From positions 1 through 23,062 of IMG/VR virus record IMGVR_UViG_3300035698_008450: a DNA stretch of 23,062 nucleotides. The stretch is one strand, 5' to 3'. The notes beneath the pieces were generated by a model. It did no database searches, was not told the origin of the DNA, and saw only the letters and a list, made by a program, of their open reading frames with translations. Source of the DNA: a virus. Each line of letters starts with the position of its first letter. The stretch's first letter is position 1. Shown in pieces: positions 1,261-21,876 of the stretch. Both the position numbers and the translations under genes were made by a program.

Positions 1261-3671
1261 TGCCTATATCCGATTCATTAAATGAAATGGATGGGAAAGA
1301 TTTGCTGGATGAAGAAGCGATTCAGCATATGCGGAAGATGTGCAAAGAGTCTCTTTTCTTTCTTGCAAGAGCCGTTCTTGGTTTTACGGATCTGGAGCCA
1401 AAGATTCATCTGCAGATTTGTCGTGACCTGGAGGATAATAACAAAAGCCGCAAGATTATTGTAATGCCGAGAACGTGGTTTAAGAGCACGATTGGCTCTA
1501 TTAGCTTTCCTATTTGGCGAGCTATCAGTGACCCGAATGTCAGAATTCTTATCTGTCAAAACTCTCACAGTAATGCTTGTAAGAAACTTGGTTCTATCAA
1601 GCAGATATTTGAGAAGAATAAGCTCTTCAGGTTGTTATTTCCTGAGATATTACCAACTCGTGATTGTAAGTGGTCCAATGATGTCCTCGAAGTAAAGAGA
1701 ACGGCAACGCATCCAGAGGGAACATTCGAAGCTGCTGGAACCGGCACGATGGTTGTTTCTCGCCATTATGATGTTATTATTGAAGATGACACTGTGGCTC
1801 CTGACAAGGATTCAATGGATGTGGAAATGCAGCAACCGACTGCTATGGAAATTGAAAAGGCCATTGGTTGGCACAACCTTACGGTTCCGCTGCTGGTTCA
1901 CCCATTGAAGGGTCAGATTATCATTATTGGAACACGATGGGCAGAAGAGGATCTCATCGGCCATGTTGTGGAGAACCATAAGAACTATCATATCATAACA
2001 CGTGCTGTTAGAGAGAAAGATGGAAAACCAGCATCTGTGGAAGAGGGCGGATTGCCAGCATGGCCGGAACGCTTTAACGATGAAGTTCTTGCTGAGGTAG
2101 AAAAATCCCTCGGGCCATATATGTTTTGTACTCCAGGTGGTGCTCCTGTTATTATGGCGGATTGGTCAGCAAGACCAATATCAATGATAGAGGCTGGTGA
2201 CAGAGTTGTTGGCTTTACATCTGGAACAACAGGAACAAGAAGTGTTACCAAGCCTACTCTTGTGACAGCAACAGGTTCTAAAGTAGCAACTGTTGTAGAA
2301 TTTCTGATGAGCTCTGGTAGAACAGTTCGTTGTACGCCAGACCATAAATGGCTTGTACAAAAGTCTCATACAACGGCAGGAAAATATCAATACGCTCCTG
2401 CTTGTCAGTGGTCATTGGATAAAAAACGTTTTTGGCCGCATGCGGACAAGACAAGAAGAACGATGCACTTTGTGTGTGATCCGTTTATTGATGCCGTAGA
2501 CGATGACAAAAAGGAGATGGCAGCTTACTTTACTGGACTCTATGATGGTGAAGGCAGTTGTACTCGACATTTGACTATTTCTCAGACTACGACTAGAAAT
2601 GGTCCTGTTTATGCAAGAATGAGAACATGCCTTGGTGCTCTTGGGTTTAAGTATAAGGAATATTTAACGCAAGGAAAAGAAAAACATCATATGCCAAGGG
2701 CTGATCTTGTTTTTGGTACGAAGTTTGAGGAACGAAGGCGGTTTTTGTTACAGATGGCTCCTGCCAAAGATGCTTCTATTATTAAGTCTTTGTATGGTGC
2801 AAGGTTTATTAAAGATGAGGATGAGGTAGTTGCTGTTAGATTACTTGGTGAAATGACAGTCTACTGGATAGAGACAGAAACTGGTAACTATATTTCACAA
2901 GGATATTGCAGTAAAAACAGCACATTGATGATGAACCATCCTACGTCAGCTACTAATATGGTGTTTCGTAGAAGCTGGATAGGCTATTTTGAAACACGAG
3001 ATATTACGAAGCTAATGTGCTGTACGACAATTGATCCTGCAGCTAGTGAACGAGAGACTACTGGTGATCCTGATTACACTGTTATTCTTACAACTGGAGT
3101 CGATCCGACAGAAGGGCAAATATTTGTCCTCGGATATGATAGAGAACGAATGAATCCTGGAGAGACCATTGACAGGTTATTCCAGCATTATAAGCTATAT
3201 CACCCATTGGATGTCGGGATGGAATCTGTTGCCTACCAGCGGACTCTCAAGTATTGGATTATGCAGCAGCAGAAAAAGCAGCGACTATTCTTTCCTGTTA
3301 CGGAAATTCCTAATGCTCGAACAGCAAAAGCTGATAGGATTCGCGGGTTGCAGCCTTTTTTCTCAAATAGGCTTGTATTTATTCGTAGTCATATGGATGT
3401 CCTTGAAAGAGAACTGTTGGCATTTCCTACTGCTAGAGGCCATGACGATGTTATTGATGCTCTTTCTATGCAGATTAAATTCTGGAACGATGCCCTTGGG
3501 CAGGTTCGAGAGAGGAAAGAAAGTCAGCTTGCAGCCAACTTGTTTTCTGGAAAGTGCATTGTTGACGAGTTGCTTGGCAGGTCTATTGCTATTAACCGTT
3601 ATCCATATGATATTGGTAACATGAAGGATCGGTTGTCGTCTAAGCAGAAACTTATTGCACACGTTGTATAG
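1260..3671 (+). CDS. terL: Terminase large subunit interrupted by an intein
   Basis: This is the DNA-packaging motor ATPase and nuclease. The N-terminal ATPase has a Walker A-like motif at P70-RTWFKS-T77, a Walker B at D171-VIIE-D176 with catalytic Glu175, and a coupling motif G224-T-R-W227. After the intein (290-553) comes an RNase H-like nuclease with Asp592, Glu655 and the G-H-D-D-x-x-D cluster at 727-733. Removing the intein gives about 539 residues, a normal TerL length. It also rejoins F289 to S554 in a segment resembling the F-S-x-x-x-x-N-x-P linker of terminases. The ATG overlaps the previous stop (TAATG). An in-frame ATG at 1287 lies just after a palindromic motif contained in codons 5-9. 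No small terminase subunit is seen in the window. Identification is secure. Confidence 0.95.
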   Translation: MPISDSLNEMDGKDLLDEEAIQHMRKMCKESLFFLARAVLGFTDLEPKIHLQICRDLEDNNKSRKIIVMPRTWFKSTIGSISFPIWRAISDPNVRILICQNSHSNACKKLGSIKQIFEKNKLFRLLFPEILPTRDCKWSNDVLEVKRTATHPEGTFEAAGTGTMVVSRHYDVIIEDDTVAPDKDSMDVEMQQPTAMEIEKAIGWHNLTVPLLVHPLKGQIIIIGTRWAEEDLIGHVVENHKNYHIITRAVREKDGKPASVEEGGLPAWPERFNDEVLAEVEKSLGPYMFCTPGGAPVIMADWSARPISMIEAGDRVVGFTSGTTGTRSVTKPTLVTATGSKVATVVEFLMSSGRTVRCTPDHKWLVQKSHTTAGKYQYAPACQWSLDKKRFWPHADKTRRTMHFVCDPFIDAVDDDKKEMAAYFTGLYDGEGSCTRHLTISQTTTRNGPVYARMRTCLGALGFKYKEYLTQGKEKHHMPRADLVFGTKFEERRRFLLQMAPAKDASIIKSLYGARFIKDEDEVVAVRLLGEMTVYWIETETGNYISQGYCSKNSTLMMNHPTSATNMVFRRSWIGYFETRDITKLMCCTTIDPAASERETTGDPDYTVILTTGVDPTEGQIFVLGYDRERMNPGETIDRLFQHYKLYHPLDVGMESVAYQRTLKYWIMQQQKKQRLFFPVTEIPNARTAKADRIRGLQPFFSNRLVFIRSHMDVLERELLAFPTARGHDDVIDALSMQIKFWNDALGQVRERKESQLAANLFSGKCIVDELLGRSIAINRYPYDIGNMKDRLSSKQKLIAHVV
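1274..1293 (+). promoter_or_regulatory. Palindromic motif copy 1 (early codons of terL)
   Basis: The sequence TTCATTAAATGAA is a perfect palindrome around its central base and is followed by ATGGATG. Outer CC (1270-1271) and GG (1289-1290) extend the dyad. The same 20-base directional motif recurs at 12455-12474 (+) and 21847-21866 (-), with one base difference each from this copy. Here it encodes part of the TerL N-terminus and precedes an in-frame ATG at 1287. The role is unknown. A protein-binding operator or a phage-specific promoter element is inferred. Confidence 0.6.
2127..2918 (+). other. Intein with single-motif LAGLIDADG homing endonuclease inside TerL
   Basis: This 264-residue intein covers residues 290-553 of the terminase ORF. 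Block A begins at Cys290 with C-T-P-G-G-A-P-V and an A-G-D-R-V strand. Block B is T359-P-D-H362. The C-terminal end follows the block F/G pattern N-Y-I-S-Q-G-Y-C-S-K-N, with terminal Asn553 and Ser554 as the +1 extein nucleophile. The penultimate residue is Lys552 where His is usual. A LAGLIDADG-like helix Y423-FTGLYDGE-G432 marks an endonuclease domain of roughly 110 residues, with Glu431 at the catalytic acidic position. Only one such motif is visible, so it would act as a dimer if active. The insertion lies in the conserved linker between the ATPase and nuclease lobes, a site class typical for inteins. Splicing is expected but not shown. Confidence 0.9.
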
Positions 3672-3679
3672 GCGGATTG

Positions 3680-5368
3680 ATGAAGAAGAAAACACCAGAA
3701 GATTGGATGTCAGATATCAGCAATGCCCTGCATTTCCGAGAGACCTTCGGAAGGGAGAGTCATTGGGCGGATCTCGAAGATAGCTATATGAATGATCCGA
3801 ATGGTGATACTGCTATTGGGCCGAACCTTGTTTATTCATATGGTGACAGCCTGATGTCGATGCTTTCTGTTCCTGATCCGGAGTTCTTAGTTGCACCGGA
3901 AACACGAGATGGCGTCAAGACAGCACCGATTGTTGAAAGACTGGCCGCTCAGCTGACAAGAAAAACGCGGATGAAGAAGGCTGTTGACAGTGGGCTGTTG
4001 AATGCTTATCTGTATGGAAGGCTTATACTTAAGGTTGGTTACGATAGCCTGTATGGCTTTGACCCTTACTATGACATTGGTTCTAGAGAGCAGCCAATGG
4101 GCATGACCCTTACACAATTTGATAAGAAGGGAAAGCGTCTGGAGTTTGGTCCGCAAAAGCCAGGCTGGCCTTGGGTTCGTCCTGTGATGCCGCATGATTT
4201 TGTTGTCCCCTGGGGAACAGTTGATATTGAGAGTGCTCCTTGGTGTGCTTTTCGCTTCATACGAGAAGTCTCTGCAATGAAGAGCGATCCGAAGTATAAA
4301 AATACTACTCGGCTGCAGGCTGACATGAACATGGAAGAGTTCATGAATAGCTATAAGACAGTTGGTGCGAAGAGGATGAAATATGAATCAGCAAGAACGC
4401 ATGACTACAACAATAAGAAAGCTCTGTTCAAAGAGTTCTGGGAGATAAGAGATGCCTCTAGCCATAGAATCATGGTCGTTACCGATGACTATGATAAATT
4501 TCTTAGAGACGATTTCGATGCCATACAGATGGCCTGTGGTCAGCTGCCAGTTGTCACGGGAACCTTTGTTCAGCATCCCAGGTCTTTCTGGACATCACCG
4601 CTCGCATATTATCTGGGACAAATACAGCATACGCAATTTGATATCTCATTGCAAGCGGAAAAGCAAAGACGATTGTCGGTTCTTAAATTCCTCGTCAGAA
4701 AAGGCGTTCTTACGGAAGAGGCTCGGACGAGGTTACTAAGCGGTGATGTAGGTGCTTGTGAAGAGGCTGAACTTGGAACGAGCACGTCTATTAACGAAGT
4801 TTTTGGAACTGTCCCGACAGGTAATCCTATAAACTTCCAGCTGCATTCAGACACTAACAGAGCAGATGCTAGAGACATGATCGGTTTTTCCAGGAACCAA
4901 GTGGGTGAATATGATTCATCCTCTAGGAGAACTGCTCGAGAAGCGACGTTTGTCAACCAAGGCTCTGAACGGCGTTCTGGTAAAAGAATGCAGATGATTT
5001 CGGATGTTTATCGAGATACCTTGCGGCTTGAGAACAAGCTGGTATTCAAGTTTTGGACAACTCCAAGAGACGTGATGGTTGAAAACGGCTGGGCTTCTGT
5101 TACTGGAAGACAGCTTGCCAGTGACTACGCTTATGATCTTACGCTTTCCAGTAAGAGAAATGTTTCTAAGGCACAACGGAAGGTTGAAGCCTTTCAGGTC
5201 TTCATGCAAATGGCTCAGTTCCCAGGTGCAAACTTGCCGATGCTTTATCAGTATCTTATGGATGCTGCAAATGATCCCGCGTTTGAGCAGCTGTTGCCGT
5301 CTCCAGGTTCTAACCAGGGTGGCAGATCGCCAAGCGGTGGGATGCCTACTATTCCTGGGAGTGCTTAA
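3680..5368 (+). CDS. Portal (head-tail connector) protein
   Basis: The 562-residue protein sits directly after TerL and before the scaffold and capsid genes, the expected portal position. Its length and mix of alpha/beta segments suit a podovirus-type portal, the dodecameric ring through which DNA is packaged and to which the tail attaches. Residues near the start (E-D-S-Y-M-N-D-P-N-G) and a long, mostly helical second half are compatible with the clip, wing, stem and crown layout. The C-terminus is Gly/Ser/Pro-rich and probably disordered. I chose the ATG at 3680 over a TTG one codon upstream; AGGCGG lies just before it. Identification rests on context and general character rather than on a diagnostic motif. 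Confidence 0.8.
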   Translation: MKKKTPEDWMSDISNALHFRETFGRESHWADLEDSYMNDPNGDTAIGPNLVYSYGDSLMSMLSVPDPEFLVAPETRDGVKTAPIVERLAAQLTRKTRMKKAVDSGLLNAYLYGRLILKVGYDSLYGFDPYYDIGSREQPMGMTLTQFDKKGKRLEFGPQKPGWPWVRPVMPHDFVVPWGTVDIESAPWCAFRFIREVSAMKSDPKYKNTTRLQADMNMEEFMNSYKTVGAKRMKYESARTHDYNNKKALFKEFWEIRDASSHRIMVVTDDYDKFLRDDFDAIQMACGQLPVVTGTFVQHPRSFWTSPLAYYLGQIQHTQFDISLQAEKQRRLSVLKFLVRKGVLTEEARTRLLSGDVGACEEAELGTSTSINEVFGTVPTGNPINFQLHSDTNRADARDMIGFSRNQVGEYDSSSRRTAREATFVNQGSERRSGKRMQMISDVYRDTLRLENKLVFKFWTTPRDVMVENGWASVTGRQLASDYAYDLTLSSKRNVSKAQRKVEAFQVFMQMAQFPGANLPMLYQYLMDAANDPAFEQLLPSPGSNQGGRSPSGGMPTIPGSA

Positions 5369-5369
5369 G

Positions 5370-5630
5370 ATGCCCATTTACGATTTAAAATGTCCGAGCT
5401 GTGAAGTTATTAGACGAGACTATTATGCTGTTAACTGTAATGATATCCCTAAGTGCACCAGATGCGGAGCGAAAATGAAACGCCTTGTCAGCCGTATCCA
5501 TGCACACGTTCTTCCCAACGGAGGCATCTTCTTAGAGCATGCCGGTCCGCACGGGAAGAATTTTCAAAGCAAGAAAGAAATGCGTGATTTCGAAAAGCAA
5601 ACAGGATCAATGATCGGGATGCTTCACTAA
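5370..5630 (+). CDS. FmdB-like zinc-ribbon small protein
   Basis: The 86-residue protein begins M-P-I-Y-D-L-K-C-P-S-C and has a second pair C29-T-R-C32-G. This gives the CxxC (8, 11) and CxxC (29, 32) zinc-ribbon layout of the FmdB-type regulatory/zinc-ribbon family, including the typical short start and the K-M-K-R-L after the second knuckle. It starts two bases after the portal stop with GGGAG upstream, and its stop overlaps the next ATG as TAATG, so it belongs to the head operon. Family members occur in phage head operons without a settled role. Binding to nucleic acid or to a head protein is a guess. The tail (about 40-86) has no recognisable motif. Confidence 0.75.
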   Translation: MPIYDLKCPSCEVIRRDYYAVNCNDIPKCTRCGAKMKRLVSRIHAHVLPNGGIFLEHAGPHGKNFQSKKEMRDFEKQTGSMIGMLH

Positions 5631-5974
5631 TGGAACCTAAAAAAGCAAAGATTACATGTGATATCTCCGGTATTGGCGGCCTGAAAGAACCAGCAATTAA
5701 GGTAATATTTGTTGGAGAGCACTTTAGTAAGAGAGCACTATTAAGGCTCTTGAAGGCCATTAGAGCTGAATACCGACGGAGTGTTCGGGAGTATCAGACG
5801 AAGAAAAGAATTGAACAACTAACGAAAGCAAAGGAAGAAAACGATGGACTCGAAAATGGAAAAGCCTCAGGAAGAATCGAAGAAGGAAGAGCAACCGGCA
5901 ACCGTAGAGTTGGTGAATATGCTGAAGACGCTCAAGGAAGAAAACGAACAGTTGCGGCAGGAAGCACAGGGTAA
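5630..5974 (+). CDS. Small conserved-type head-operon protein overlapping the scaffold gene
   Basis: The 114-residue product is not recognised. Residues 6-32 look like a short beta-rich segment, followed by a strongly basic helix (S-K-R-A-L-L-R-L-L-K-A-I-R-A-E-Y-R-R, about 33-50). From about residue 72 onward the reading frame overlaps the scaffold ORF by 131 bases in another frame. This tail is rich in Gly, Arg and Glu and looks less protein-like. The TAATG junction with the zinc-ribbon gene argues that it is translated. It may act with the scaffold or portal, but nothing in the sequence proves this. Confidence 0.6.
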   Translation: MEPKKAKITCDISGIGGLKEPAIKVIFVGEHFSKRALLRLLKAIRAEYRRSVREYQTKKRIEQLTKAKEENDGLENGKASGRIEEGRATGNRRVGEYAEDAQGRKRTVAAGSTG

Positions 5975-6593: not shown

Positions 6594-6605
6594 TAGGAGA
6601 GCATA

Positions 6606-7705: not shown

Positions 7706-8269
7706 ATGGCAAGAAAAGTTTTGTTTAACGAGTGTGCTTTGACAGACCTAAAGGCCTCTGATACTGAGGGTCTTGGGGTGCTGTACGAGGACAAGTATGG
7801 ACGTGTTTATCGTTTTGTGAAGAATGTTGGATCAACGGCTCTTGTGGCTGCTGGTTGTTGCGTGAAGAAACTCGGGCAGTCCTCAGCTCTTGATACCACA
7901 AAGTACGTTTTGTCGTCTGATGCTGCAACCGGCCCGTCTACTTGCTTGGTAACAATGCCGGCTGGTGTTCCTGTTACCGCTATTGCAGCGAGTGGTGCTG
8001 CTACTGGCGATCATGGTTGGATACAGGTAAAAGGGCCTGCTAAGGTTTCGATGCTTCCACTATCAACGGCGGTTAATCAGGAAGCTGGCTGTTGTGCAAT
8101 TTCTACTACGACAGCCGGTGGAAACTGGGGAGCAGCTGTTACTTCTCTTATCAGCAGTACAGCTGGTGGCATTGTAAACCTTCGTTGCGTTCAGCTTTCA
8201 GAACCTTTGACCGAGGTAACGCCAGCAACTGCCGCTAGTGCTTACGTTCAGGTTCGCTGCCTGGACTAA
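7706..8269 (+). CDS. Capsid decoration or minor head protein candidate
   Basis: The 187-residue, small-residue-rich (Ala, Thr, Gly, Val), beta-type protein has no transmembrane segment or signal peptide. Its place immediately after the coat gene, behind TAGGAGATAACAAGT and an ATG, and its all-beta look suit a decoration or head-stabilising protein. It carries nine Cys residues, including two C-C pairs, unusual for a decoration protein. No family was recognised. The gene ends just before the strong ribosome site of the sugar cassette, so it could also be a target for glycosylation. That link is speculative. Confidence 0.55.
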   Translation: MARKVLFNECALTDLKASDTEGLGVLYEDKYGRVYRFVKNVGSTALVAAGCCVKKLGQSSALDTTKYVLSSDAATGPSTCLVTMPAGVPVTAIAASGAATGDHGWIQVKGPAKVSMLPLSTAVNQEAGCCAISTTTAGGNWGAAVTSLISSTAGGIVNLRCVQLSEPLTEVTPATAASAYVQVRCLD

Positions 8270-8279
8270 AGGAGGTGAT
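8269..8279 (+). promoter_or_regulatory. Full-length Shine-Dalgarno site deciding a TTG start
   Basis: AAGGAGGTGAT matches the anti-Shine-Dalgarno end of 16S rRNA over 11 bases. It lies 7 bases (counted from GGAGG) before a TTG at 8283, while no ATG or GTG is correctly placed. It overlaps the stop of the upstream gene and sets the start of the first glycosyltransferase. Confidence 0.85.
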
Positions 8280-8282
8280 TTC

Positions 8283-8996
8283 TTGTCTGAGAACAAAAAC
8301 CTGAAGATTGCAATTTGTTCACATGTTTTCAGAGACATTGATTTCTCTGTTTACTTTAACCATATGTGGTGCATTAGTTCATGGGTTAAAAAGTACGATG
8401 TAGTTTTCTGCGGAAAACGTGGTCTTGATGCTGCTACAGCACGAAACCAACTTGTCGAAAGAGCCGTAGAACATAATTGCACGCATATGTTTTTCATGGA
8501 TGGCGATCATTTGTTTCCGCCGGAAACTTTGCCGTTATTACTGGAGTCCAAGGATGAGGCAATGGTATCTGGTCTGGTGTGTAAAAGAGGGGAAGGTTAT
8601 CAACAGGTTGGTTTCCAGAAGTCCGAAAATGGCTCGTACCAGTCTGTTGACCTTCCCCTTGATGGTAAGGTGTACCAAGTAAGAGTATGTGCATTTGGCT
8701 GTACGCTTATTAACATGAAGTATCTTCTTAAGCTAGAGCCTCCGTACTTTCGCGATAACTGCATTAAGACTTCCAATGGAGACCTTTACAACTTTCGCAG
8801 TGACGTGAATCTTTGTGAAGCCTTTCATGAGATCAAGGAACGCTGTTGGATAGATACTAGAATATTGATTGGACATCACGGATATGACTCTGTTATTTAT
8901 CCACAGCAGGCCAAAGACAGAGTTGCCTGTGATGGCCTCTTGAAAAGTTCTCTTGTGCTGAAGAAGGAAGAAGAAGGGTTTTATTATGAACCATGA
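8283..8996 (+). CDS. GT-A-type glycosyltransferase
   Basis: The 237-residue protein starts at TTG 8283. An upstream in-frame ATG at 8238 lies inside the previous gene and lacks a ribosome site. It opens with a short beta strand (L-K-I-A-I-C-S-H), continues with A-A-T-A-R-N-Q-L-V-E-R-A, and then has F-F-M-D73-G-D75-H. The latter is the DxD motif that binds the metal and nucleotide sugar in GT-A glycosyltransferases. The next segment, L-F-P-P-E-T-L-P-L-L-L, is also typical. It would transfer a sugar to an unknown acceptor in the cytoplasm. It overlaps the next gene by 11 bases and heads a three-gene sugar cassette inside the structural operon. Modification of a virion protein or of host surface glycans is likely. 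Fold confident, substrate unknown. Confidence 0.75.
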   Translation: MSENKNLKIAICSHVFRDIDFSVYFNHMWCISSWVKKYDVVFCGKRGLDAATARNQLVERAVEHNCTHMFFMDGDHLFPPETLPLLLESKDEAMVSGLVCKRGEGYQQVGFQKSENGSYQSVDLPLDGKVYQVRVCAFGCTLINMKYLLKLEPPYFRDNCIKTSNGDLYNFRSDVNLCEAFHEIKERCWIDTRILIGHHGYDSVIYPQQAKDRVACDGLLKSSLVLKKEEEGFYYEP

Positions 8997-9810
8997 TATC
9001 GCTTTCTTTACAGTAAAACAGTGGGCGAGCAGTAAAATTCGTGGCAGTCAAATTGCATACCGATTGGATGCTCTTTGTGATGTGCCTGTTAATCAGGATA
9101 GAATGCCAAAGCACATTGTTTGCGTGAAGTGCTTGCCGATGGAGATTGACCAGTTCATTGACGCTGGCGTGCAGGTGTGGGTTGATCCTATCGACAACGA
9201 TGGGGCTCTGAAAGAGATTGCTAAGAGACCAGGTATAAAAGTTCTTGCAATTGGCGATTCTGCAGAACATTATTTACATGCAAGGTTGGTGAATGATGTT
9301 GTGAAGATACCTGAACATCATTGTAACTTTGATAGAGAACAGACAAGGCGGCGGCAGAATGAATGTGTTGCTGGGTATGTCGGTTATGAGGAGTGTTTTG
9401 ATCTATCATTGAATGATGTAAAAGAAGCTCTTTCAAAGGTTGGTATCAGCTTCAAGTGGCTCTTGCTAAATGCTAACACAACTCGTGAAGAAGTGGTTGG
9501 CTTTTACAAGACCATTGATATGCAGGTGACGTTTAGGCTTCCAAAGATTGTCACTGGTATGCCGCCTGAGATGAAGAATCCTTTGAAGGTTGTGAATGCT
9601 GCCAGCTTCGGAATAGCAACTGTTGGTTATCCTGAAGTCAGTTACGAGGAATTTCCTCCGCTTTACAGCGTTACCAATATCGAAGACCTCGTTATACAGT
9701 GTAAGCGTCTCAAGAATCAGCAGCCGTTTTATACAACGAACCTGTTGGAACGAGCTGAGGCATATCATATTGATAACATTGTTGCTCGATACAAGGAGGT
9801 GCTGGTATGA
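8986..9810 (+). CDS. GT-B-like (glycosyltransferase family 4-type) protein
   Basis: The 274-residue protein has a C-terminal region (about 185-215) with the pattern R-L-P-K then M-K197-N-P-L-K-V-V-N204-A-A-S-F-G209. This corresponds to the donor-binding K-P-x-K-x-x-E-A-x-A-x-G segment of GT-B glycosyltransferases, but the usual Glu is Asn204. The N-terminal half has alternating strands and helices consistent with a Rossmann-like lobe (for example K-V-L-A-I-G-D-S, about 85-92). It is shorter than full GT4 enzymes (about 350-400), so it may be a reduced or divergent form. It starts inside the previous gene and ends with an ATGA overlap with the aminotransferase, so the three are probably translated together. 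Acceptor unknown. Confidence 0.6.
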   Translation: MNHDIAFFTVKQWASSKIRGSQIAYRLDALCDVPVNQDRMPKHIVCVKCLPMEIDQFIDAGVQVWVDPIDNDGALKEIAKRPGIKVLAIGDSAEHYLHARLVNDVVKIPEHHCNFDREQTRRRQNECVAGYVGYEECFDLSLNDVKEALSKVGISFKWLLLNANTTREEVVGFYKTIDMQVTFRLPKIVTGMPPEMKNPLKVVNAASFGIATVGYPEVSYEEFPPLYSVTNIEDLVIQCKRLKNQQPFYTTNLLERAEAYHIDNIVARYKEVLV

Positions 9811-10997
9811 TATCTCTTTTCAAAGTTGCGATGAATAGCAATACACCAAAGGCTGTTGGCGATGTGTTGATGTCTGGTTATATTGGTGAGGGGGAGAAGG
9901 TAGAAGAGTTCACATCGAGGTGTAAAAAGCTCATCGGGTGCAAGCATGCAGTAGCGACAAACAGTGGAACGAGTGCCCTGCAGCTTGCACTTTTCTGTGC
10001 CGGTGTCGGTCATGGAGATGTTGTTATCTCTACGCCTGTCACATGTTTGGCGACAAACACTGCTATCAGGGCGGTTGGTGCTGATATTCTTTGGGCTGAT
10101 GTCGATCCGCGTACGGGTAGTATTGACCCAGAGTCTGTAAAAGATTTGCTAGAGCGAAGTCCTGATACTGTTGGGGCAATCATGTGTGTGCATTGGGGTG
10201 GAATGCCTTGTAACATGAAGAGGCTTCTTGAAATTGCTGATGACTACGGAGTAACGCTTATAGAAGATGCGGCTCAGGCTTGGTTGTCTCGATATGATGA
10301 AAAGAACATCGGCTCTTTTGGTCACTTGACCTGTTTTTCTTTCCAGGCTATTAAACACCTAACAACTGGCGACGGCGGGCTAGTTACAATGAGTTCAAAC
10401 AAACTCTACGAAACTGCCCGCTTAGCCAAGTGGTTTGGGCTTGATAGAAAGTTGTCAACTAGCATGCGATGTGACCAAGACCCACCGATGGCAGGGTTTA
10501 AGTATCAGATGAATGATATTGCGGCAGCCATTGGCTTGTGTAACATAGATGAGTCTGTTGGTAGAGTTGAGCTGCATCAGGCTCACGCTCGTCGTTACGA
10601 TCAGGAGTTTGCTCATCTTCAACATGTAGCTATTCCCTTTTATTCATCTGTGAAGGAAAGTTCCTACTGGCTTTATACGATTCTCGTAGAGAATCAAGAA
10701 GCCTTTATTGCTTTCATGAAAGATCGAGGAGTTGAATGCTCTAAAGTACATGCAAGGAATGACACCAAGACTGTTTTTAAGCAATACAAGGCACCACTGC
10801 CGGGAGTTGCTTCCTTTGATGAGTATCAAGTAAACATTCCCGTTGGCTGGTGGTTGTCTGGCGATGAAATTTCACACATTATAAACTGTATAAGGAGCTT
10901 TGACGATGGCTACAGCAACTGTAGCAAAGAACAAGACGCGTGCGTTTCGCAGAGCAATCAGCATCTTGCAGCAGCCTGCTGGCGAGAGCAACGCTAG
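9807..10997 (+). CDS. DegT/DnrJ/EryC1/StrS-family sugar aminotransferase
   Basis: The 396-residue protein has the main family landmarks. These are G-Y-I-G-E-G near residue 24, N52-S-G-T-S-A for the PLP phosphate, E-D154-A-A-Q157 for the pyridine ring, and F-S-F-Q-A-I-K183-H with the Schiff-base lysine followed by G-D-G-G. Family members transfer an amino group to a keto-sugar nucleotide and so make amino sugars for glycans. With two glycosyltransferases upstream, it probably supplies or elaborates the sugar they attach. The natural family C-terminus seems to be I-I-N-C-I-R-S-F (about 366). The last 30 or so residues run on over the start of the next gene in another frame and look accidental. 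The start is ATGA-coupled. Confidence 0.9.
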   Translation: MISLFKVAMNSNTPKAVGDVLMSGYIGEGEKVEEFTSRCKKLIGCKHAVATNSGTSALQLALFCAGVGHGDVVISTPVTCLATNTAIRAVGADILWADVDPRTGSIDPESVKDLLERSPDTVGAIMCVHWGGMPCNMKRLLEIADDYGVTLIEDAAQAWLSRYDEKNIGSFGHLTCFSFQAIKHLTTGDGGLVTMSSNKLYETARLAKWFGLDRKLSTSMRCDQDPPMAGFKYQMNDIAAAIGLCNIDESVGRVELHQAHARRYDQEFAHLQHVAIPFYSSVKESSYWLYTILVENQEAFIAFMKDRGVECSKVHARNDTKTVFKQYKAPLPGVASFDEYQVNIPVGWWLSGDEISHIINCIRSFDDGYSNCSKEQDACVSQSNQHLAAACWREQR

Positions 10998-12447: not shown

Positions 12448-12454
12448 CAACAGT

Positions 12455-12474
12455 TTCATTTAATGAAATGGATG
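12455..12474 (+). promoter_or_regulatory. Palindromic motif copy 2 (upstream of fibre-like gene)
   Basis: This copy sits in the 33-base intergenic gap. TTCATTTAATGAA is palindromic, extends to 15 bases with the flanking T and A, and is followed by ATGGATG. It ends 6 bases before the ATG at 12481, which lacks a normal ribosome site unless the GGATG of the motif serves as one. It differs from copy 1 by one base in 20. Confidence 0.65.
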
Positions 12475-12480
12475 TGATAA

Positions 12481-13431
12481 ATGGCTGAGAACGATTGGGA
12501 TGTCAGCTTACCAATTAACCATACGAAGATAGGTGATGTACCTTCTAAGATTCGAGATGTAAAAAGTTCCACAAAGCAGATTTTTACCAAGGAACATGTG
12601 ACGCCATCGACAGATAATGCCGGTGGGCAGCATGTAAAAGGTTCTGCTCGTGTGTATCTTGACAGTGCTACGCCAGCTGTTGATCCGGAAGGTAATAACC
12701 TTGACACAACTGCGACAGCTGACAATGGTAGAGTTGCGGTTCTGACAGGCTCAAGTAACATCATACAGGTATACGTTGGAACATCTGCTGGCGTTTCGAC
12801 TGGCTGGGAAGGCGTTGCGTGTCAAAGGGTTTATCTTGCAGAAACAATGAATGCTAACAGCAAGCCTCTCGTTGGCCTCGTGAATGGTACGCAGGCTGAT
12901 GAAGCTGTGCGGCTTGGACAGATTGATACAACGCATCTTGTTACTAACTCAACTGGAGTTATTAGCTTGCCAGTAATTGGAACTTATCTTGCGGCAAGTG
13001 GTACAAGCGGAATTGCTGTTCTCAAGACGCGTGATACTCAACAGTCACAAGCAGTTGGAGCAACAGATATTTCTAACAATACTGGTGACTGGGCTGACAT
13101 GGCTGGTATGTCAATAACGCTCACGACAACTGGTGGAAATGTCCTTCTTATGTTTGCTGCAACTTTTGAATCTTATGACGATGATGAAATTCTTGGTTTA
13201 AGATTTGACCTTGATGACACTGCTTACTGTACACAGCAACAGGTAATGCACGACAATGTTTTAGGAGCACTTGAAGGACAGGAGAAGTTAATATCAATGC
13301 ACTGGTTGTTTACTTCTTTGGCTGCAGGAGAACATACGTTTAAGGTACAGTGGAAAGATGTTCTTTATCTTGTAAAGCAAGATGGTACAAGTTTTCCTCG
13401 GGTGCTTACTGCTTTGGAGATGCCAGCATAA
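12481..13431 (+). CDS. Tail fibre/tail-associated protein candidate
   Basis: The 316-residue protein has an N-terminal segment N-D-W-D-V-S-L-P-I-N-H-T-K-I-G-D-V-P-S, similar in style to N-terminal attachment regions of short fibres. A Thr/Asn/Gly/Val-rich middle (about 60-190) follows. The C-terminal domain of about 120 residues reads like a TNF-like or C1q-like jellyroll (M-S-I-T-L-T-T-T-G-G-N-V-L-L-M-F-A-A-T-F, about 212-231), a fold common at fibre tips. Trimeric receptor or glycan binding is therefore plausible. It is preceded by palindromic motif copy 2 and followed by a TAATG overlap with the next gene. Lying between adaptor and nozzle candidates is unusual for a fibre. Confidence 0.55.
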   Translation: MAENDWDVSLPINHTKIGDVPSKIRDVKSSTKQIFTKEHVTPSTDNAGGQHVKGSARVYLDSATPAVDPEGNNLDTTATADNGRVAVLTGSSNIIQVYVGTSAGVSTGWEGVACQRVYLAETMNANSKPLVGLVNGTQADEAVRLGQIDTTHLVTNSTGVISLPVIGTYLAASGTSGIAVLKTRDTQQSQAVGATDISNNTGDWADMAGMSITLTTTGGNVLLMFAATFESYDDDEILGLRFDLDDTAYCTQQQVMHDNVLGALEGQEKLISMHWLFTSLAAGEHTFKVQWKDVLYLVKQDGTSFPRVLTALEMPA

Positions 13432-16177: not shown

Positions 16178-17203
16178 ATGGCTACAGTCGTACCAGTTCA
16201 ACAGGCACCAGATGTTCTTGGCTTTGCCCTGAAAGTTGCTGGTTTTAGAGAAGAAAAGAAACAAGCAGCTATACAGGCTAAGCAAACAGAAGCGGCTCTT
16301 AGGTTGAAGAGTAAAGGTCTGTCACTTGATGAAAGACGAGTAATTTTGTCTGAAGCATCACAGGCTACTACTCTTAAGTATCAGCAGGCTCAGATTGATC
16401 GTCTTCTCGGTAATGAAAAGAGAGACAGTGAGATACATGATACGGAACGAGAGCTTAAGGTTCTTGGATCTGCTGGTTTGAATGCCAGCTATGAGGCAGA
16501 AACTAAGAAGCATAAGCTTGATTTCCTAAATGGTCTCACTGATCCGTTGCAGGTAAATGAATACTACATGCAACGGACGCTGATGGCATCTATGCAGCAG
16601 GAGATTCGGCAGAAAACCGCAGAAATAGCTGCTGGCAGAGAACAGAGAATGGCAGCTTCGGATCAGTTCCGGCAGCAGCAGACACTTTCTGACAACAAAA
16701 TGAGAGCCTTTAACCAAACATATCGTCCTACTATTGATTCATATGCAGGAACTGTATCGCATTCTGCAGTTGCTCAAGGAGCTATTAACCACAGCAAAAT
16801 AATCGATAACAAAGATGCTACGCCGGAGCAAAGACTTGCTGCGAATAGAGACTGGAACAAGGTTCTTTCCGATGCTGCTAAGCTGAAAAGTGCTAGAGAG
16901 TTAACAGTTCTTCAAGGAAAAGAAGAAGTTATTGGCCAGCAGTCACTAAAGGAGCGGGCAAGTATTGAACTGCTTGGTCATCCTGAGCTGTTCAAGAATA
17001 TAGAAGAGTATAATAAATGGAGTCAGGCTCCTTGGATTCATCCTGTTACAGAAGATCCGTGGTTCGGACCTCCTAAATTTGTTGCTCCGAAGATTACGGA
17101 ACAGCCACAGCCACAGCAACAGCAACAGTCAATGAATAGAAAGCCTTCAACTGATGTAAAGGTAAATAATCCGGCTGTTACAACAGATGTAGGAAGGAAA
17201 TAA
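16178..17203 (+). CDS. Internal virion/ejection protein candidate 2 (helical, Gln-rich)
   Basis: The 341-residue, strongly helical protein is rich in Gln, Lys, Ala and Glu. A coiled-coil-like N-terminal half (about 20-165) contains A-I-Q-A-K-Q-T-E-A-A-L-R-L-K and Q-Q-E-I-R-Q-K-T-A-E-I-A-A. The C-terminus is Pro-rich and has a short Q-P-Q-P-Q-Q-Q-Q-Q run coded by a CAR trinucleotide stretch near 17101-17129. Its start has CAGGAGCTTAAA. As the second of three consecutive genes before a very long ORF, it matches the middle internal protein of podoviruses, which helps form the ejection channel. No motif is diagnostic. Confidence 0.55.
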   Translation: MATVVPVQQAPDVLGFALKVAGFREEKKQAAIQAKQTEAALRLKSKGLSLDERRVILSEASQATTLKYQQAQIDRLLGNEKRDSEIHDTERELKVLGSAGLNASYEAETKKHKLDFLNGLTDPLQVNEYYMQRTLMASMQQEIRQKTAEIAAGREQRMAASDQFRQQQTLSDNKMRAFNQTYRPTIDSYAGTVSHSAVAQGAINHSKIIDNKDATPEQRLAANRDWNKVLSDAAKLKSARELTVLQGKEEVIGQQSLKERASIELLGHPELFKNIEEYNKWSQAPWIHPVTEDPWFGPPKFVAPKITEQPQPQQQQQSMNRKPSTDVKVNNPAVTTDVGRK

Positions 17204-17206
17204 TAG

Positions 17207-20200
17207 ATGGCTGTTATTGAATCTCCATCACAGCTAAGGGCTCGTCTTGCTCCGCAGTATGAAATGGGCGGATCGAAGGCTGTCAAAGCTAAGCTGACAA
17301 TGGATGAGCAAAGGCAGAAGTTTGTCGATGCTGGCTATAATGTTACTGATCTTACGCCGGAAGATAAAGACTCTAGCCTTTTTCCTGGAGTAACTGAAAC
17401 ATGGCGACCGAAAAGTGAGCCTAAATGGTTTGTCTATAAGCTCGATACCGATGGTAATATTGCTGTTGATGATACTGGAAATGAGCTTCAGTCAATTGTG
17501 TATCCAAAAATGGACATCGATTCTGATGATCCATCACGTCCTGTGTATCAGGGTTTTTGGAAGGAACGGCAGAAAGATGCTATTCGTGCTGTGGAAGGTG
17601 TAGGAGCTTCCCTCGGTTCTGCAGCTGATATCATAAAGGGTCTTCTTCAAGAGCAACCAGCTGGAATGGCCATGCAATATGGACCTGCTGTGCAAGCTGG
17701 TCAAATGTCGGATGAAGAGATAGAAACTTTTACAACGCCACTTCGAAAATGGGGAGATGTACTGGCTGAAGATGCTAGAAGCTGGCAAATGGCACCTGGG
17801 AGAGATGGAGAGTGGTATGATAAAGCGTCTGATATGTTTGCACAGACATCTGCTTATATGATGGCGGTTTCTGCAGCAACAGCTATTGGAGTTCCTTTTG
17901 GTGCTAGTGGGCCACTTGCCTTTGTATCAAGCAGTCTCATGATGGGTGATAACATACGAAGGAACGCCATTGATCATGGTGCTTCACAGGAACGAGCGGA
18001 TTTGGAAGCTTGGATTGGTGGTCCTGCTGTTGGTGCTCTTGAATTCTTTCAGCTCAGCAAGTTTATAAAGTTTGCAAAGGGCTACGATAAGCTCGGTAAA
18101 GCTTACATGGCTAAGGCTATTACTGAGAAAAGCCTGACGAAGATGGCAAAGAATCCTAAACATGTGACTAGTATCCTTAAGCTTGCTGGCTCTGAAGCTC
18201 TTGTAGAAGTAATGCAAGAAGCAACAGAGATGGGCATTGCAAAGATGGGACACAGCGAAAAGATAACATTCTATGATGCCATTGAACGCATGACTTATGC
18301 TGCTACTGGTGCTGCTATTATGACGCCTTTCTTCGCTTTTCCAGGCGTTATTTTTAACAGGCGGTTGGAAACAAGTAACAGAAACGAGCCTATTGATCTG
18401 CGATTTGACAGCATCAATGAAGCCATGACTGCTATCAGGACGGAAGCTTCTAATGCTCTTGTTCATGACATGGGTAAGATTAAGGCAACACTTCCAAGTA
18501 GCAAGAAGCTTAAAAGCAAGAAAGCCTTTGATAAGTTTGCAGAAGAGCAACAGTTTTTTCCTGAGAAGAAGGCTGTCGATCCGTTGTCAAAAGAAGAGGT
18601 AACAGCGTATCAGGAAAAGACCGGAGCTGAGTTGTCGGCTGTTCTGAAGGCAACCCCAGAAGATGTGCGAGCGGAGCTTGAAGGTAAGACTGCCGAAGAA
18701 AAAACTGCAGAGCCAATAGGACCAGTTGAAAAGCCAGCAACGTTTGAGGAAAAGTGGGCAGCTGTTGATAAGAAGTTTCACTCACTGACAGGTCTCGCCG
18801 CTCTCGCTAAGCATGTTGCTCCGAAGTGGATGGTGAACAAGCTGGAAGGTATTGAGTATCTAACGAGAGACCTTGAAAGTGCCCGCATATCAGCTGACCT
18901 TATGACGAAGGCTCTGCAGCCATTTGCAGACAAGGCTATTAAGTTCTACCGATCAAAAGCCTCTAGAGGCGATAAGTTTTACAGCTGGCTAACGAACAGA
19001 GCTGTGAAGCCTATTCAACAACTATACGATGACCTTGATAGTAGAGAATGGGCTGATGAAAGTTGGTCACAGGAAGATCAAGAAACATTCAATGACATGC
19101 GAACGCTTCTTCAGGGCCTTAGAGAAGTTGCTAATATTGGCAGGAAAAAAGCTGGTTTGCCAGAAATAAAGAACATCACAAATTACATCAGCCACTGGTC
19201 TGATACTGCTGTTGACGCCGTGTCGTCCTATAGCGAGGTAGAAGATGTTATTGATAACAATGGCGATGTTGTAAAAACGAAAAAGGTTTCTAAGAAGGAG
19301 CTGGAAAGACGGCGAAAAGAAAAGAGCCATCCTCTACAATTTGGTTACATTTGGAGGCTGGCAAAACGGTATGCAGATAAGCCGAAGGACTTTAAGAACT
19401 CCTCGGCGTTTCGCAGGAAGCTAAAGGATGAAATTGAAACTCATTACAGCAAGAACGTTGATGAGATAATGAAGGCTCTCATTTCGTATGATGTTAGGGA
19501 TGCCCTGCTCACAAATCCGTACACAGCTGCAAAGGAGGAACTGACAAGGCTTGAAAAAGATGGTGGAATTCCAAAGGATGTTCGCAATGACCTGGCAAAA
19601 TACATGACGTATGATATTGCTCGTCAGGTTAGTGAGATTGATGAAGAGATTGATAAGATATTTGTAACACCTTTGAAGATTGCGAACTACGCTCTTAAGC
19701 CCTTTAATAGAGAGATACTGAGTGTCGTAAAGCCCACGTCTCGGATGTTTCGGCAGCTTGCACATGTTAGTGCTCTTGGCTTTCGGCTGAAACCAGCTAT
19801 TAGAAACCTTGGGCAACGTATTTTGCTCACTGATCTTTACCATTACAGGGACTTGTGGACAGCTCAGTGTCATCAGGCTGATGGCTTTTGGCCATCTGTT
19901 GATGTTGGGACTGACGAGGAGGTAACGCTCGGTGACTGGTTGAAGGGAAAGAACTGGTATCAAGCGACGGAAAATTACCTGTCGGAAAATGACGAGGCTC
20001 TTACAAACAGGGTTGGTCGTGCGAGTTCAAAGTTATTCCATATGGCTCACATAAGTAACGTAAACGTGTCTGCTCGTGTCGGTTATACTGACTGGCTACG
20101 GAGATACGAGGGATCAAAAGACAAAAACAGTTCTTACTACAAGCATGTTGAGAAGAAAGTAGTAAGCGATCTGCGAAAAGAAGCACAGAAGGAAGGGAAA

Positions 20201-20806
20201 GATGTAAAAGACTTTATAACAAAAAACTATGACAAAGAGATGGAACGGGGTCTTGTCAAGAAAGAAGACATGGAGGATATGATTCACGATGCTGTTCGTC
20301 TGACGCAGTGGGAATATCTTCCAACCAGCATGCCTTTGCATTACCGATCGGATGCTGCCAAAGCCGCAATGCTCTTCCAGTCTTGGGTGCAAAACTATTA
20401 CGGTGGGCATGTTGTTGAGATGGCGTACCGGATGAAACATGGAAGGGATACATCAGGTAGGGTGTTGGAGCCTCGTGGGAGGGCCCAAGCATTGAAGGGC
20501 CTTGGCGGTATACTGGCTGCTGGTAAGGCAATGGAAGCAATGCTTGGTATATCGATCCTGAAGTTTGTGCTCTTTCCGCATGATGATGAAACACCGCCTG
20601 AGAGCATTCCAGCTTTTCAGGTGGTAGATGGTGTGTACAAAGCTGCGTTTTCAGATGATGAATATGAAAGGAAAAAATCTATCAGCAATGCATCGTCTGT
20701 TCTTGAACTGCTGATCCCTGGCAAACAAGCATACAATGATGTTAGAAAGCTGTACGAGCAGCAAGACCTAAAATCATTCCTGTTTTATGACTTACCGAAG
20801 GAGTAA
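17207..20806 (+). CDS. Large internal virion/ejection protein, polyvalent-like
   Basis: This 1199-residue protein is the largest in the window. The N-terminal 130 residues are mixed alpha/beta. Hydrophobic stretches occur around 217-240 (M-A-V-S-A-A-T-A-I-G-V-P-F-G) and 366-383 (G-A-A-I-M-T-P-F-F-A-F-P-G-V-I-F). Between them lies G-S-E-A-L-V-E-V-M-Q-E-A-T-E, a pattern seen in phage large polyvalent proteins. A charged linker (about 430-520) precedes a long helical C-terminal half. Length, position last among the internal proteins, and paired hydrophobic regions fit the big ejection protein that crosses the host envelope. No lytic transglycosylase or polymerase motif is visible. Start: AGGAAGGAAATAATAG then ATG. 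Confidence 0.65.
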   Translation: MAVIESPSQLRARLAPQYEMGGSKAVKAKLTMDEQRQKFVDAGYNVTDLTPEDKDSSLFPGVTETWRPKSEPKWFVYKLDTDGNIAVDDTGNELQSIVYPKMDIDSDDPSRPVYQGFWKERQKDAIRAVEGVGASLGSAADIIKGLLQEQPAGMAMQYGPAVQAGQMSDEEIETFTTPLRKWGDVLAEDARSWQMAPGRDGEWYDKASDMFAQTSAYMMAVSAATAIGVPFGASGPLAFVSSSLMMGDNIRRNAIDHGASQERADLEAWIGGPAVGALEFFQLSKFIKFAKGYDKLGKAYMAKAITEKSLTKMAKNPKHVTSILKLAGSEALVEVMQEATEMGIAKMGHSEKITFYDAIERMTYAATGAAIMTPFFAFPGVIFNRRLETSNRNEPIDLRFDSINEAMTAIRTEASNALVHDMGKIKATLPSSKKLKSKKAFDKFAEEQQFFPEKKAVDPLSKEEVTAYQEKTGAELSAVLKATPEDVRAELEGKTAEEKTAEPIGPVEKPATFEEKWAAVDKKFHSLTGLAALAKHVAPKWMVNKLEGIEYLTRDLESARISADLMTKALQPFADKAIKFYRSKASRGDKFYSWLTNRAVKPIQQLYDDLDSREWADESWSQEDQETFNDMRTLLQGLREVANIGRKKAGLPEIKNITNYISHWSDTAVDAVSSYSEVEDVIDNNGDVVKTKKVSKKELERRRKEKSHPLQFGYIWRLAKRYADKPKDFKNSSAFRRKLKDEIETHYSKNVDEIMKALISYDVRDALLTNPYTAAKEELTRLEKDGGIPKDVRNDLAKYMTYDIARQVSEIDEEIDKIFVTPLKIANYALKPFNREILSVVKPTSRMFRQLAHVSALGFRLKPAIRNLGQRILLTDLYHYRDLWTAQCHQADGFWPSVDVGTDEEVTLGDWLKGKNWYQATENYLSENDEALTNRVGRASSKLFHMAHISNVNVSARVGYTDWLRRYEGSKDKNSSYYKHVEKKVVSDLRKEAQKEGKDVKDFITKNYDKEMERGLVKKEDMEDMIHDAVRLTQWEYLPTSMPLHYRSDAAKAAMLFQSWVQNYYGGHVVEMAYRMKHGRDTSGRVLEPRGRAQALKGLGGILAAGKAMEAMLGISILKFVLFPHDDETPPESIPAFQVVDGVYKAAFSDDEYERKKSISNASSVLELLIPGKQAYNDVRKLYEQQDLKSFLFYDLPKE

Positions 20807-20811
20807 CGAGT

Positions 20812-21294
20812 ATGAAGAAGCTATTAGTAGTAGTTGCAATAGTGGCGTTATTGGGCCAAAACACGGCCCTAGCGGGCGTTGTGGCGGGCGTGTTGGGCAA
20901 TAACGACGTATTGCAAGTCCGGGTCGGCGTTCGGCCGTTAGAACGCACTGAGGCTGGATTGTTCGGAGGATATGGTGATGATAACAACGTCATCAGTAGT
21001 GGCGTGTATGGCACGTATGATCTGGTAGAGGCTCAGGAATTTAAGATCGGAGGCTTTGTTGTTCCAGTCACGTGGTATGTTGGCGGCTTCCTTGGGCTTG
21101 CGGATGAGGAGGAGTTCGAGGATTTTGATGAAACTGAGGTAATGGCATCTGCTCTCAGTGGCCTTTACTTTGGTGATGACAAGATTACTCTTGGCGTGGA
21201 ATATCAGTACGGTTTTGATGATGGCCTGTGGAGTGAACTTGGGAAGGTTCCTGATCAGCATGAGGTTTTGTTTAACGTAAAATGGAGGTTCTAA
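20812..21294 (+). CDS. Outer-membrane beta-barrel protein with signal peptide
   Basis: The 160-residue protein has a textbook signal peptide: M-K-K, a hydrophobic core, and A-L-A before Gly22. The mature part of about 139 residues alternates polar and hydrophobic residues in strands such as I-T-L-G-V-E-Y-Q-Y-G-F. It ends H-E-V-L-F-N-V-K-W-R-F, with the C-terminal aromatic beta-signal read by the BAM machinery. About 8 strands are expected, as in OmpX/Lom-like proteins. It probably sits in the host outer membrane. In a phage this could mean superinfection exclusion or a changed host surface. The first 100 or so bases use GC-richer codons than the neighbours. It starts after AAGGAGTAACGAGT and closes the ejection-protein run. 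Confidence 0.75.
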   Translation: MKKLLVVVAIVALLGQNTALAGVVAGVLGNNDVLQVRVGVRPLERTEAGLFGGYGDDNNVISSGVYGTYDLVEAQEFKIGGFVVPVTWYVGGFLGLADEEEFEDFDETEVMASALSGLYFGDDKITLGVEYQYGFDDGLWSELGKVPDQHEVLFNVKWRF

Positions 21295-21297
21295 CAG

Positions 21298-21552
21298 ATG
21301 TTCGCTAGAATTGCTACCAGTTTATTTCCTCTTCTGTGGGCTTGTAGGATTCACTTGTTGGACGGATTGGTTGCTGGGTATTTCACAGAAGATCGGGCAA
21401 GAAAATGGAGAATCAAGACTGAGAGGCGTTGGATTAAATTTGGAGAACGAGCACATCGGACGAAGAATTGCAAGAGTGATGACGTTATATATCGCTTTGG
21501 TGTTGTTTATCTGAAAAGCTCAAGGGTCCAAGTTGCGTCTCAAGATCGTTGA
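21298..21552 (+). CDS. Uncertain small ORF at end of late operon
   Basis: The 84-residue ORF starts at ATG 21298, 9 bases after GGAGG, and runs to 21552. Its N-terminus (about 1-27) is mildly hydrophobic and the rest is basic, with no known motif. A different frame over the same DNA, from a TTG at 21311 to 21514, encodes 67 residues with two hydrophobic ends (about 1-23 and 53-67) and looks like a small membrane protein, but it has no ribosome site. Either could be real, or a frameshift may separate them. The ORF's distal part is followed by a terminator. Treat as unproven. Confidence 0.35.
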   Translation: MFARIATSLFPLLWACRIHLLDGLVAGYFTEDRARKWRIKTERRWIKFGERAHRTKNCKSDDVIYRFGVVYLKSSRVQVASQDR

Positions 21553-21584
21553 TTCTTTTTAAGACTTCAGGTTTTTGTTGCTCA

Positions 21585-21619
21585 GGGGTAGTCGGCTTGT
21601 TGCTGGCTGCCCCTATTTT
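21585..21619 (+). terminator. Rho-independent terminator of the late operon
   Basis: GGGGTAGTCGGC at 21585-21596 pairs with GCTGGCTGCCCC at 21602-21613 around a TTGTT loop. The 12-position stem starts with four G-C pairs and includes three G-T wobbles. TATTTTA follows directly. The T-rich end is on the plus-strand side only, so it should stop rightward transcription just before the oppositely directed genes. Confidence 0.7.
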
Positions 21620-21827
21620 ACTGCACAGTGAATGGTGGACGAGGGGTTCTGTGCTGACATGAGGATAATTGATTATCGATTGCATCTGCTCTTCTTTCTG
21701 CTGCTACTATTTCACAGTCACAGGGTGTTACATATGTTACCATTTCTGGTTTATAACAGTAAAGAGTCTTTAACGTCTTCTTGCATTTACTGCATTTGAT
21801 TATAAGCTTTACGCTATAGGGATGCAT
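21618..21827 (-). CDS. Small zinc-ribbon-like protein
   Basis: The 69-residue minus-strand protein has C12-S-K-C15 and C36-D-C38, plus C24, a zinc-ribbon-like spacing, with basic and aromatic residues between. Read leftward, AGAGGAGATAAA precedes the ATG, so translation is well supported. It follows the DUF3987-like gene after 49 bases that hold palindromic motif copy 3, and it ends against the late-operon terminator. Nucleic acid binding is possible but not shown. Confidence 0.7.
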   Translation of the reverse strand: MHPYSVKLIIKCSKCKKTLKTLYCYKPEMVTYVTPCDCEIVAAERRADAIDNQLSSCQHRTPRPPFTVQ

Positions 21828-21846
21828 TTTATCTCCTCTTAACTGT

Positions 21847-21866
21847 CATCCGTTTCATTTAATGAA
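21847..21866 (-). promoter_or_regulatory. Palindromic motif copy 3 (minus strand, upstream of zinc-ribbon gene)
   Basis: Read on the minus strand this is TTCATTAAATGAA followed by ACGGATG, one base in 20 from copy 1. It lies between the stop of the DUF3987-like gene and the ribosome site of the zinc-ribbon gene, 19 bases before that ATG. As in the other copies, the GGATG side faces the downstream gene. Confidence 0.65.
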
Positions 21867-21876
21867 TTGGTTGTTA

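Follow-up and report, generated by a model that had tools for sequence, protein, structure and literature searches.

Three copies of a palindromic element in a 23,062-nucleotide virus fragment (IMG/VR record IMGVR_UViG_3300035698_008450, positions 1 to 23,062; hereafter, the window) appear, with a probability that we place at about 0.7, to be parS-like sites of a phage ParB-family protein that carries a fused N6/N4 DNA methyltransferase. That the sites are bound by members of this fusion family is, from comparison of the sequences, likely. By computation, we found that palindromes sharing a layout recur among related phages, with letters specific to each genome, positions at gene junctions, and, in seven genomes, even spacing, and that the letters track the recognition helix of a single phage protein family. 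Together, the recurrence and the tracking lend weight to a putative dimeric binding protein, as had been suggested in an initial annotation of the window.

Three exact copies in the window

The window was scanned for the 20-mer TTCATTWAATGAAAYGGATG at up to three mismatches, against a background of 100 dinucleotide shuffles. Copies with zero mismatches stand at 1274-1293 (+), 12455-12474 (+), and 21847-21866 (-); the three near-identical 20-mers of the initial annotation thus proved exact, where 0.01 were expected, and the shuffle mean of 0.01 at up to three mismatches excludes chance as their source. The scan returned six matches for the three copies, because each palindrome also matches the opposite strand with two mismatches. 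The core, TTCATTWAATGAA, occurs at three places in the 23,062-base record when one mismatch is allowed, and its reversed control at none. In full, the site covers about 25 bp and reads ATCC-N2-TTCA, a 5-bp spacer, and then the mirror image. The inner TTCA is present in all six half-sites, while the outer box is ATCC in four and AACC and AACA in one each, and the symmetry of copy 1 spans 25 bases (1268-1292), the two inner N positions excepted. The copies had been described as a directional motif with a GGATG tail; the motif stands, but its one-sidedness does not, as GGATG is the outer box (ATCC/GGAT) of one arm, and this box is found on most arms. Copy 1 falls within the reading frame of terL, 14 bases past the start, copy 2 occupies a 33-base gap ahead of a fibre-like gene, and copy 3 is flanked by two minus-strand genes (Table 1). 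An exact IMG/VR search with the window 20-mer gave a single match, in a 92-kb contig, and an exact search with the form of the site found in the related contig G003 returned only G003 itself; letter-by-letter searching therefore misses the site family.

Palindromes of one layout in related phages

Relatives were identified by way of the major capsid protein (MCP), and their contigs were then scanned for repeated palindromes. Their common layout is half-site-N5-half-site, in 3-9 dispersed palindromes, with letters specific to each genome, among them TTGTTCA-N5-TGAACAA in G015, CATATTCA-N5-TGAATATG in G022, CATATCCA-N5-KGGATATG in G019, TGTCCA-N5-TGGACA in G041, TATTTCA-N5-TGAAATA in G023, ATTTCA-N5-TGAAAT in G025, TGTTCA-N5-TGAACA in both G029 and G043, and TTCA-ATNAT-TGAA in G047. 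G003, whose MCP is 64% identical to that of the window, carries six copies of the window core with a different outer box, and in G002, the closest relative, weaker sites were seen at 3410, 14490, and 26540. When the most frequent odd-centred palindrome family of each of 33 contigs was set against 60 dinucleotide shuffles, it beat all 60 in 12 contigs (G022, G015, G029, G047, G041, G003, G043, G040, G023, G024, G032, and G033). The result was weaker for G025 (3/60) and for G008 and G039 (6/60 each), and the window's own three copies were not significant in this blunter test, where 9 of 60 shuffles reached three; no even-centred family came under 5/60 among the 33. The family of G033, an AT-rich TTTAAA confined to 7-16 kb in a contig that has no fusion, was not counted as one of sites.

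The layout bears directly on the hairpin promoters of N4-type virion RNA polymerases, of which the initial annotation had been reminded. The relatives' sites consist of two half-sites around a 5-bp spacer, not of a 5-bp stem with a 3-base loop, and they also occur antisense and at convergent gene ends (G015 2202, G041 16562, and G029 33325). Further, the orientation of each copy toward a downstream gene, which had been read from the window, fails in G003, where two of the six copies (23067 and 30720) have their stronger flank set against the surrounding genes. Neither the hairpin promoter nor the orientation can be upheld on these grounds. The broader idea of promoters for a phage-specific RNA polymerase or sigma factor draws on a sigma region 4-like protein encoded by some contigs and on a sigma-70-like promoter, read by eye, near G003 20110. 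We consider it scarcely probable, given the convergent-end sites, the loss of orientation in G003, and the outer box on most arms; a sigma-like protein was also set aside as the binding partner, as the site-bearing G047, G041, and G039 gave no sigma region 4 match. A T7-type RNA polymerase (PF00940) was matched in none of 18 contigs, which is a weak negative, as none of 14 control genomes gave a match either, and three large open reading frames (ORFs), including one of 1199 amino acids in the window, had no polymerase match in Pfam.

Several other repeats were noted in these genomes. In L054, two of the recurrent positions are taken by yet another set of letters, CTAATCTA-N5-TAGATTAG. L161 (G042) carries TCTAACA-N5-TGTTAGA-like sites and, in addition, a dispersed palindrome of about 31 bases, TAGATTATAATGA-N5-TCATTATAATCTA, which recurs with small changes at 10581, 15019, and 19721 and forms a second palindrome family, possibly of terminators. 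In G003 (within L027), a tandem 11-base repeat, CTACAATGTTG, lies at 20409-20455, in the early region and to the right of two sites. The genomes of G015 and G019 (entries L114-L116 and L117-L119) have the same length, exactly 44,970 bases, but differ in their sites and fusion proteins.

A ParB-methyltransferase fusion as the candidate partner

Among contigs of at least 30 kb, ParB_N (PF02195) scored above the cut-off in 15 of 18, all of them relatives rather than the window itself. Of these 15, 11 were accepted as having sites, G008, G039, and G025 being the ones with weaker shuffle results; no sites were accepted in the three contigs that lack ParB_N, which do carry polA and DUF3987. ParB_N was fused to an N6_N4 methyltransferase in all 14 proteins checked in Pfam, and PF02195 was above the cut-off in all 10 fusions of one such check. 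The domain order is ParB_N, helix-turn-helix, and N6/N4 methyltransferase, and the relatives' ParB_N retains the conserved Arg boxes G-E/G-R-R and E-N-x-x-R. Profile alignment placed residues 2-191 of the fusion on ParB (7bnk), 3-191 on Noc (7ng0), and approximately 195-421 on methyltransferases. An AlphaFold model (predicted local distance difference test, pLDDT, 84.7) has helices at 136-143 and 147-162 and matched CcrM, Noc, ParB, and KorB in Foldseek, the ParB-like matches having expectation (E) values of about 5e-9 to 2e-8 but low whole-chain template modeling (TM) scores. As modeled, the C-terminal part is a CcrM/DpnA-like methyltransferase.

G049 is a separating case, in which the fusion accompanies the sites despite unrelated structural genes. 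It has no capsid or portal cluster match (E 1e-3) and a terL match of 24%; it shares polA, DUF3987, a PDDEXK gene, and the fusion, and it has nine GTTCA-N5-TGAAC sites. The gene order ParB-methyltransferase, polA, DUF3987 is found in G022, G047, G049, and the Microcystis phage L418, and third place after the fusion and polA is held by a gene named DNA primase in the Desulfofustis phage OP947158 and by an unnamed gene in L419. Given this order, and since the window breaks off at roughly the start of its DUF3987 gene, the fusion gene of the window's own phage would be expected just beyond the right end; polA and a fusion with Gly at the position of residue 144 are predicted there, no more than about 7 kb past base 23,062.

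No match to ParA (PF13614) was found in 13 contigs, a set that includes fragments, all 14 control genomes being positive; a tyrosine integrase was likewise not found in 13 contigs, fragments among them. Partition and classical lysogeny are therefore less likely, and, because no ParA was found, the predicted fusion-site system is not a usual partition system. The ParA search argues against a dispersed centromere of a plasmid-like prophage of the N15 type, at which ParB would be bound for partition. We regard this alternative as highly improbable, for all that the binder belongs to the ParB family and that N15 has four such sites, inverted repeats (IR) 1-4 (PMC7205306, as excerpted).

The recognition helix and the letters of the site

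Covariation was measured as mutual information over 23 protein-site pairs and 375 columns, with residues numbered as in G041. Residue 144, in the recognition helix, ranked first for half-site bases -2 (z 5.3) and -3 (z 3.6). In Caulobacter ParB, R173 is a specificity residue, and residue 144 follows its position as judged by eye; specificity residues have been placed in the DNA-binding domain (PMC7383237).

A rule taken from the training pairs (Gly with TTCA, Ser with TCC, and Ala with TWAC/TTTA) was then scored on further loci, of which 157 were available; removal of 11 with at least 80% identity to a training protein and of 44 duplicates left 102 non-redundant loci, 64 with Gly, Ser, or Ala that were scored and 38 with other residues that were not. 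Of 18 locus-level hits, 13 agree with the rule, against a permuted mean of 6.2 (p 0.0008), in a test that was not fully blind, as the rule was fixed after pooled counts had been seen and the TTTC class went unscored. An excess of rule-fitting sites appears only at spacer 5, with 13 fits among 25 sites, as against 0-5 fits among 4-16 sites at ten other spacers.

The rule fits one of the three named phages examined (OP947158, and not L418 or L419). OP947158 (34.5% guanine plus cytosine, GC) has Ser in the helix (SSKSSISRD) and eight TGTCCC-N5-GGGACA-type sites, of which two are exact and six have a single mismatch, with a weaker ninth copy; a single script read both the helix and the sites. Its fusion protein is WBK39746.1; fusions of the Gly and Ala types occur, for example, in G043 and L316, respectively. 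The OP947158 sites are spaced 2-8 kb apart; 95% of the genome is coding, and five of the eight sites are intergenic. The OP947158 record (L417), labeled circular, has an identical 127-base stretch at 1-127 and 44317-44443, which is either a terminal repeat or an assembly overlap.

Where the sites sit

Positions were scanned around orthologous gene starts, the pairs G015/G024 and G016/G017 being near-copies. A site stands 20-30 bases ahead of the fibre gene, with differing letters, in the window, G003, G016/G017, and G018, and, by a separate scan, before the same gene in G002. The gene-start scan found no site just before it in G015, G019, G022, G025, G029, and G008; in G015, there is one approximately 150 bases upstream. 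Another recurrent place is 34-51 bases before the gene that follows the MCP gene (G015/G024, G016/G017, G018, G019, G022, G029, and L060). Sites in their own letters lie at the terL start of G002 (+20) and G008 (+26), as in the window, and sites near DUF3987 are also found in G015, G019, G022, G029, and G041. Overall, 67% of 88 sites in 16 contigs lie within 40 nucleotides of a gene end, compared with 14% at random and a highest value of 28% in 2,000 trials (genes being our own ORF calls of at least 80 amino acids, and G008 sites being counted with up to four mismatches).

This closeness to gene ends, along with sites in some divergent control regions of the relatives, would suit a KorB/VirB-like regulator network, in which the same protein and sites would serve mainly in silencing or timing at gene junctions, with the methyltransferase secondary. 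KorB, itself a ParB-family clamp, silences promoters from distant operators (PMC11790492, in the text available). We think such a network unlikely, although its odds overlap with those of our favored reading, with which it shares the binder. Convergent gene ends carry sites as well, short junctions may just be DNA free of coding constraint, and the sites of seven genomes are evenly spaced rather than gathered in promoter clusters. In those seven, the largest gap between sites falls below the random expectation (combined p 3e-5; P 0.0013-0.22 singly), a result that leans on OP947158 (p 0.0013; the other six 0.02-0.22), treats all seven genomes as circles, and leaves out G003, G008, G025, and G043. 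For 10 contigs taken singly and as lines, P was 0.045-0.74.

Dispersed junction sites with phage-specific letters are also a property of the stoperators of Cluster A mycobacteriophages, at which an immunity repressor, here unrelated to ParB, would block transcription elongation (PMC6550527, as excerpted). Stoperators of the L5 type are asymmetric and mostly oriented with transcription according to the same excerpt, whereas the sites of the window and its relatives are palindromes. With no tyrosine integrase found in the 13 contigs and with letters that track the helix of the ParB fusion, this makes stoperators a very unlikely account.

A possible mechanism and the case against it

If the sites are those of the ParB-methyltransferase fusion, a dimer would bind each of them through its helix-turn-helix, and a nucleotide-switched clamp would then close and slide over neighboring DNA. 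There is precedent in ParB, which closes as a cytidine triphosphate (CTP) clamp at parS and spreads (PMC12704722), and in KorB, which slides from its operators and silences genes (PMC11790492). With site gaps of at most approximately 8-15 kb in the seven genomes, such a clamp could cover the whole genome, and the sliding fusion would bring the methyltransferase to phage DNA in cis, while local gene silencing may come on top. By analogy, delivery of the methyltransferase by the clamp could be the main role, a proposal to which we would give slightly less than an even chance. More tentatively, the fusion might mark self in cis, with the site-loaded clamp carrying the methyltransferase along its own genome so that only site-bearing DNA is methylated. 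Phage lineages might then recode the site and the recognition helix together, each gaining a self-tag of its own that could serve, for instance, against restriction by the host or against competing phages.

Several observations weigh against the fusion as the binder and against its clamp-like action, in addition to the incomplete blinding of the rule and the dependence of the evenness result on one phage and a circular, partial genome set, as given above. First, the window contains no fusion gene itself. Second, the fusion and the sites do not always coincide. G028, G034, and G038 encode the fusion and have no clear sites (the Ser of G028 predicts TCC sites, and it has one such palindrome only), the fusion-bearing G027 has at best two copies, and no clear sites were found in L418 and L419, two of the three named phages, whose helix region aligns poorly. 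The shuffle test was passed by only 35 of 158 fusion loci of at least 7 kb, a count that includes duplicates and some doubtful GC-rich loci, and a first set of distant loci was not enriched (5/36 fusion versus 3/29 methyltransferase-only loci). Sites starting with TG occurred at 19 of 190 fusion loci versus 2 of 67 others, of which one is a fragment of G049, by a criterion picked after the data had been seen, and the Gly/Ser/Ala rule test was relied on instead. Third, for half-site base -1, residue 144 ranked only eighth, and the top columns, 420 and 344, lie in the methyltransferase part; relatedness therefore inflates the covariation. G035 and L183 break the Gly/Ser rule. Fourth, spacing looks random in G003, G008, G025, and G043 when they are tested as lines. 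Finally, in a 2025 survey, nucleotide binding was not seen for 17 of the 28 ParB-fold proteins that had been purified (PMC12704722).

Should the fusion be the binder, its role would be opened to binding, methylome, and chromatin immunoprecipitation (ChIP) experiments by a set of DNA sites and a partly predictive protein-to-site rule, for which the named complete phage genome OP947158.1 is an available test case. The phages would then carry a ParB-type system for which no ParA was found and whose sites are spread along the viral genome, and, across lineages, they would offer a natural series of recoded ParB-DNA specificities.

Genes around the sites

The terL of the window encodes 803 amino acids, as compared with 521 in G022 and 552 in G003. 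Between the terminase halves lies a stretch with the motif AAYFTGLYDGEGS, which we take to be LAGLIDADG-like, and this terL probably bears an intein. The small Cys-rich gene beside copy 3 had no Pfam match. In the structural cluster at 8238-10997, there is a gene whose relatives we judged by eye to be glycosyltransferases, together with an aminotransferase (phrog_3139); glycosyltransferase-like and aminotransferase genes also stand amid structural genes in the relatives. The portal protein had no tblastn match in 50,697 phage records, and a search of a genome collection with the MCP for a host returned four distant contigs of metagenome-assembled genomes.

Table 1. Palindrome copies and adjoining genes in the 23,062-nucleotide window
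Feature	Position	Strand	Core	Sequence	Remarks
terL	1260..3671	+			5' end overlaps copy 1; longer than terL of relatives
Site copy 1	1268..1292		1274-1286	ATCCGATTCA-TTAAA-TGAAATGGAT	Within 5' end of terL
Site copy 2	12449..12473		12455-12467		14 bases upstream of fibre-like gene; left outer box weak (AACA)
Fibre-like gene	12481..13431	+			Downstream of copy 2
Small Cys-rich gene	21618..21827	-			Adjoins copy 3
Site copy 3	21848..21872		21854-21866		Between DUF3987 gene and small minus-strand gene
DUF3987 gene (primase/helicase-like)	21877..23061	-			Contig stops at about its start

Comparison with known systems

Like the proposed fusion system, ParB-parS and Noc-NBS combine ParB_N and a helix-turn-helix with palindromic sites, and the site of phage L295, TGTTTCATCGTGAAACA, nearly spells the parS consensus. 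Unlike them, the phage sites are odd-centred, with a 17-bp inner site, an N5 spacer, outer boxes, and a genome-wide spread, and the phage protein has a C-terminal methyltransferase and no ParA that could be found. KorB-OB of plasmid RK2 is similar in that a ParB-family protein without a strict partition role acts as a long-range sliding clamp at an odd-centred palindromic operator; it differs in lacking a methyltransferase, in working with KorA, and in belonging to a plasmid rather than a phage.

The promoters of the N4 virion RNA polymerase are hairpins with a 3-base loop that lie upstream of genes in the sense direction. They have a palindrome in common with the present sites, whereas the loop and stem layout and the orientation rule differ, and the weak search given above found no polymerase. 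The IR sites of N15 are presumably dispersed over its genome. There, as proposed here, several inverted repeats of a phage are bound by a ParB-type protein (IR1-4 and SopB; PMC7205306, as excerpted), but SopB of N15 is partnered by SopA, and the N15 prophage is a plasmid, whereas no ParA was found in the 13 contigs searched. The stoperators of L5 and Bxb1 are likewise genome-wide sites with a phage-specific consensus (PMC6550527, in the excerpt), and they differ in being asymmetric, oriented, and bound by another protein, while the present sites are palindromic and of mixed orientation in G003.

Among the matches listed in the literature (title or start of abstract), a coverage that takes in few subscription papers and preprints, none gave DNA sites for phage ParB-methyltransferase fusions. 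The same domain fusion is known, however, as fusions of a ParB fold with an N6_N4 methyltransferase are frequent in phages and enriched in prophages, with a role "perhaps in anti-defense", and the excerpted text that describes them names no DNA sites (PMC12704722). To this known fusion, the comparison of sequences herein adds a proposed family of cognate sites.

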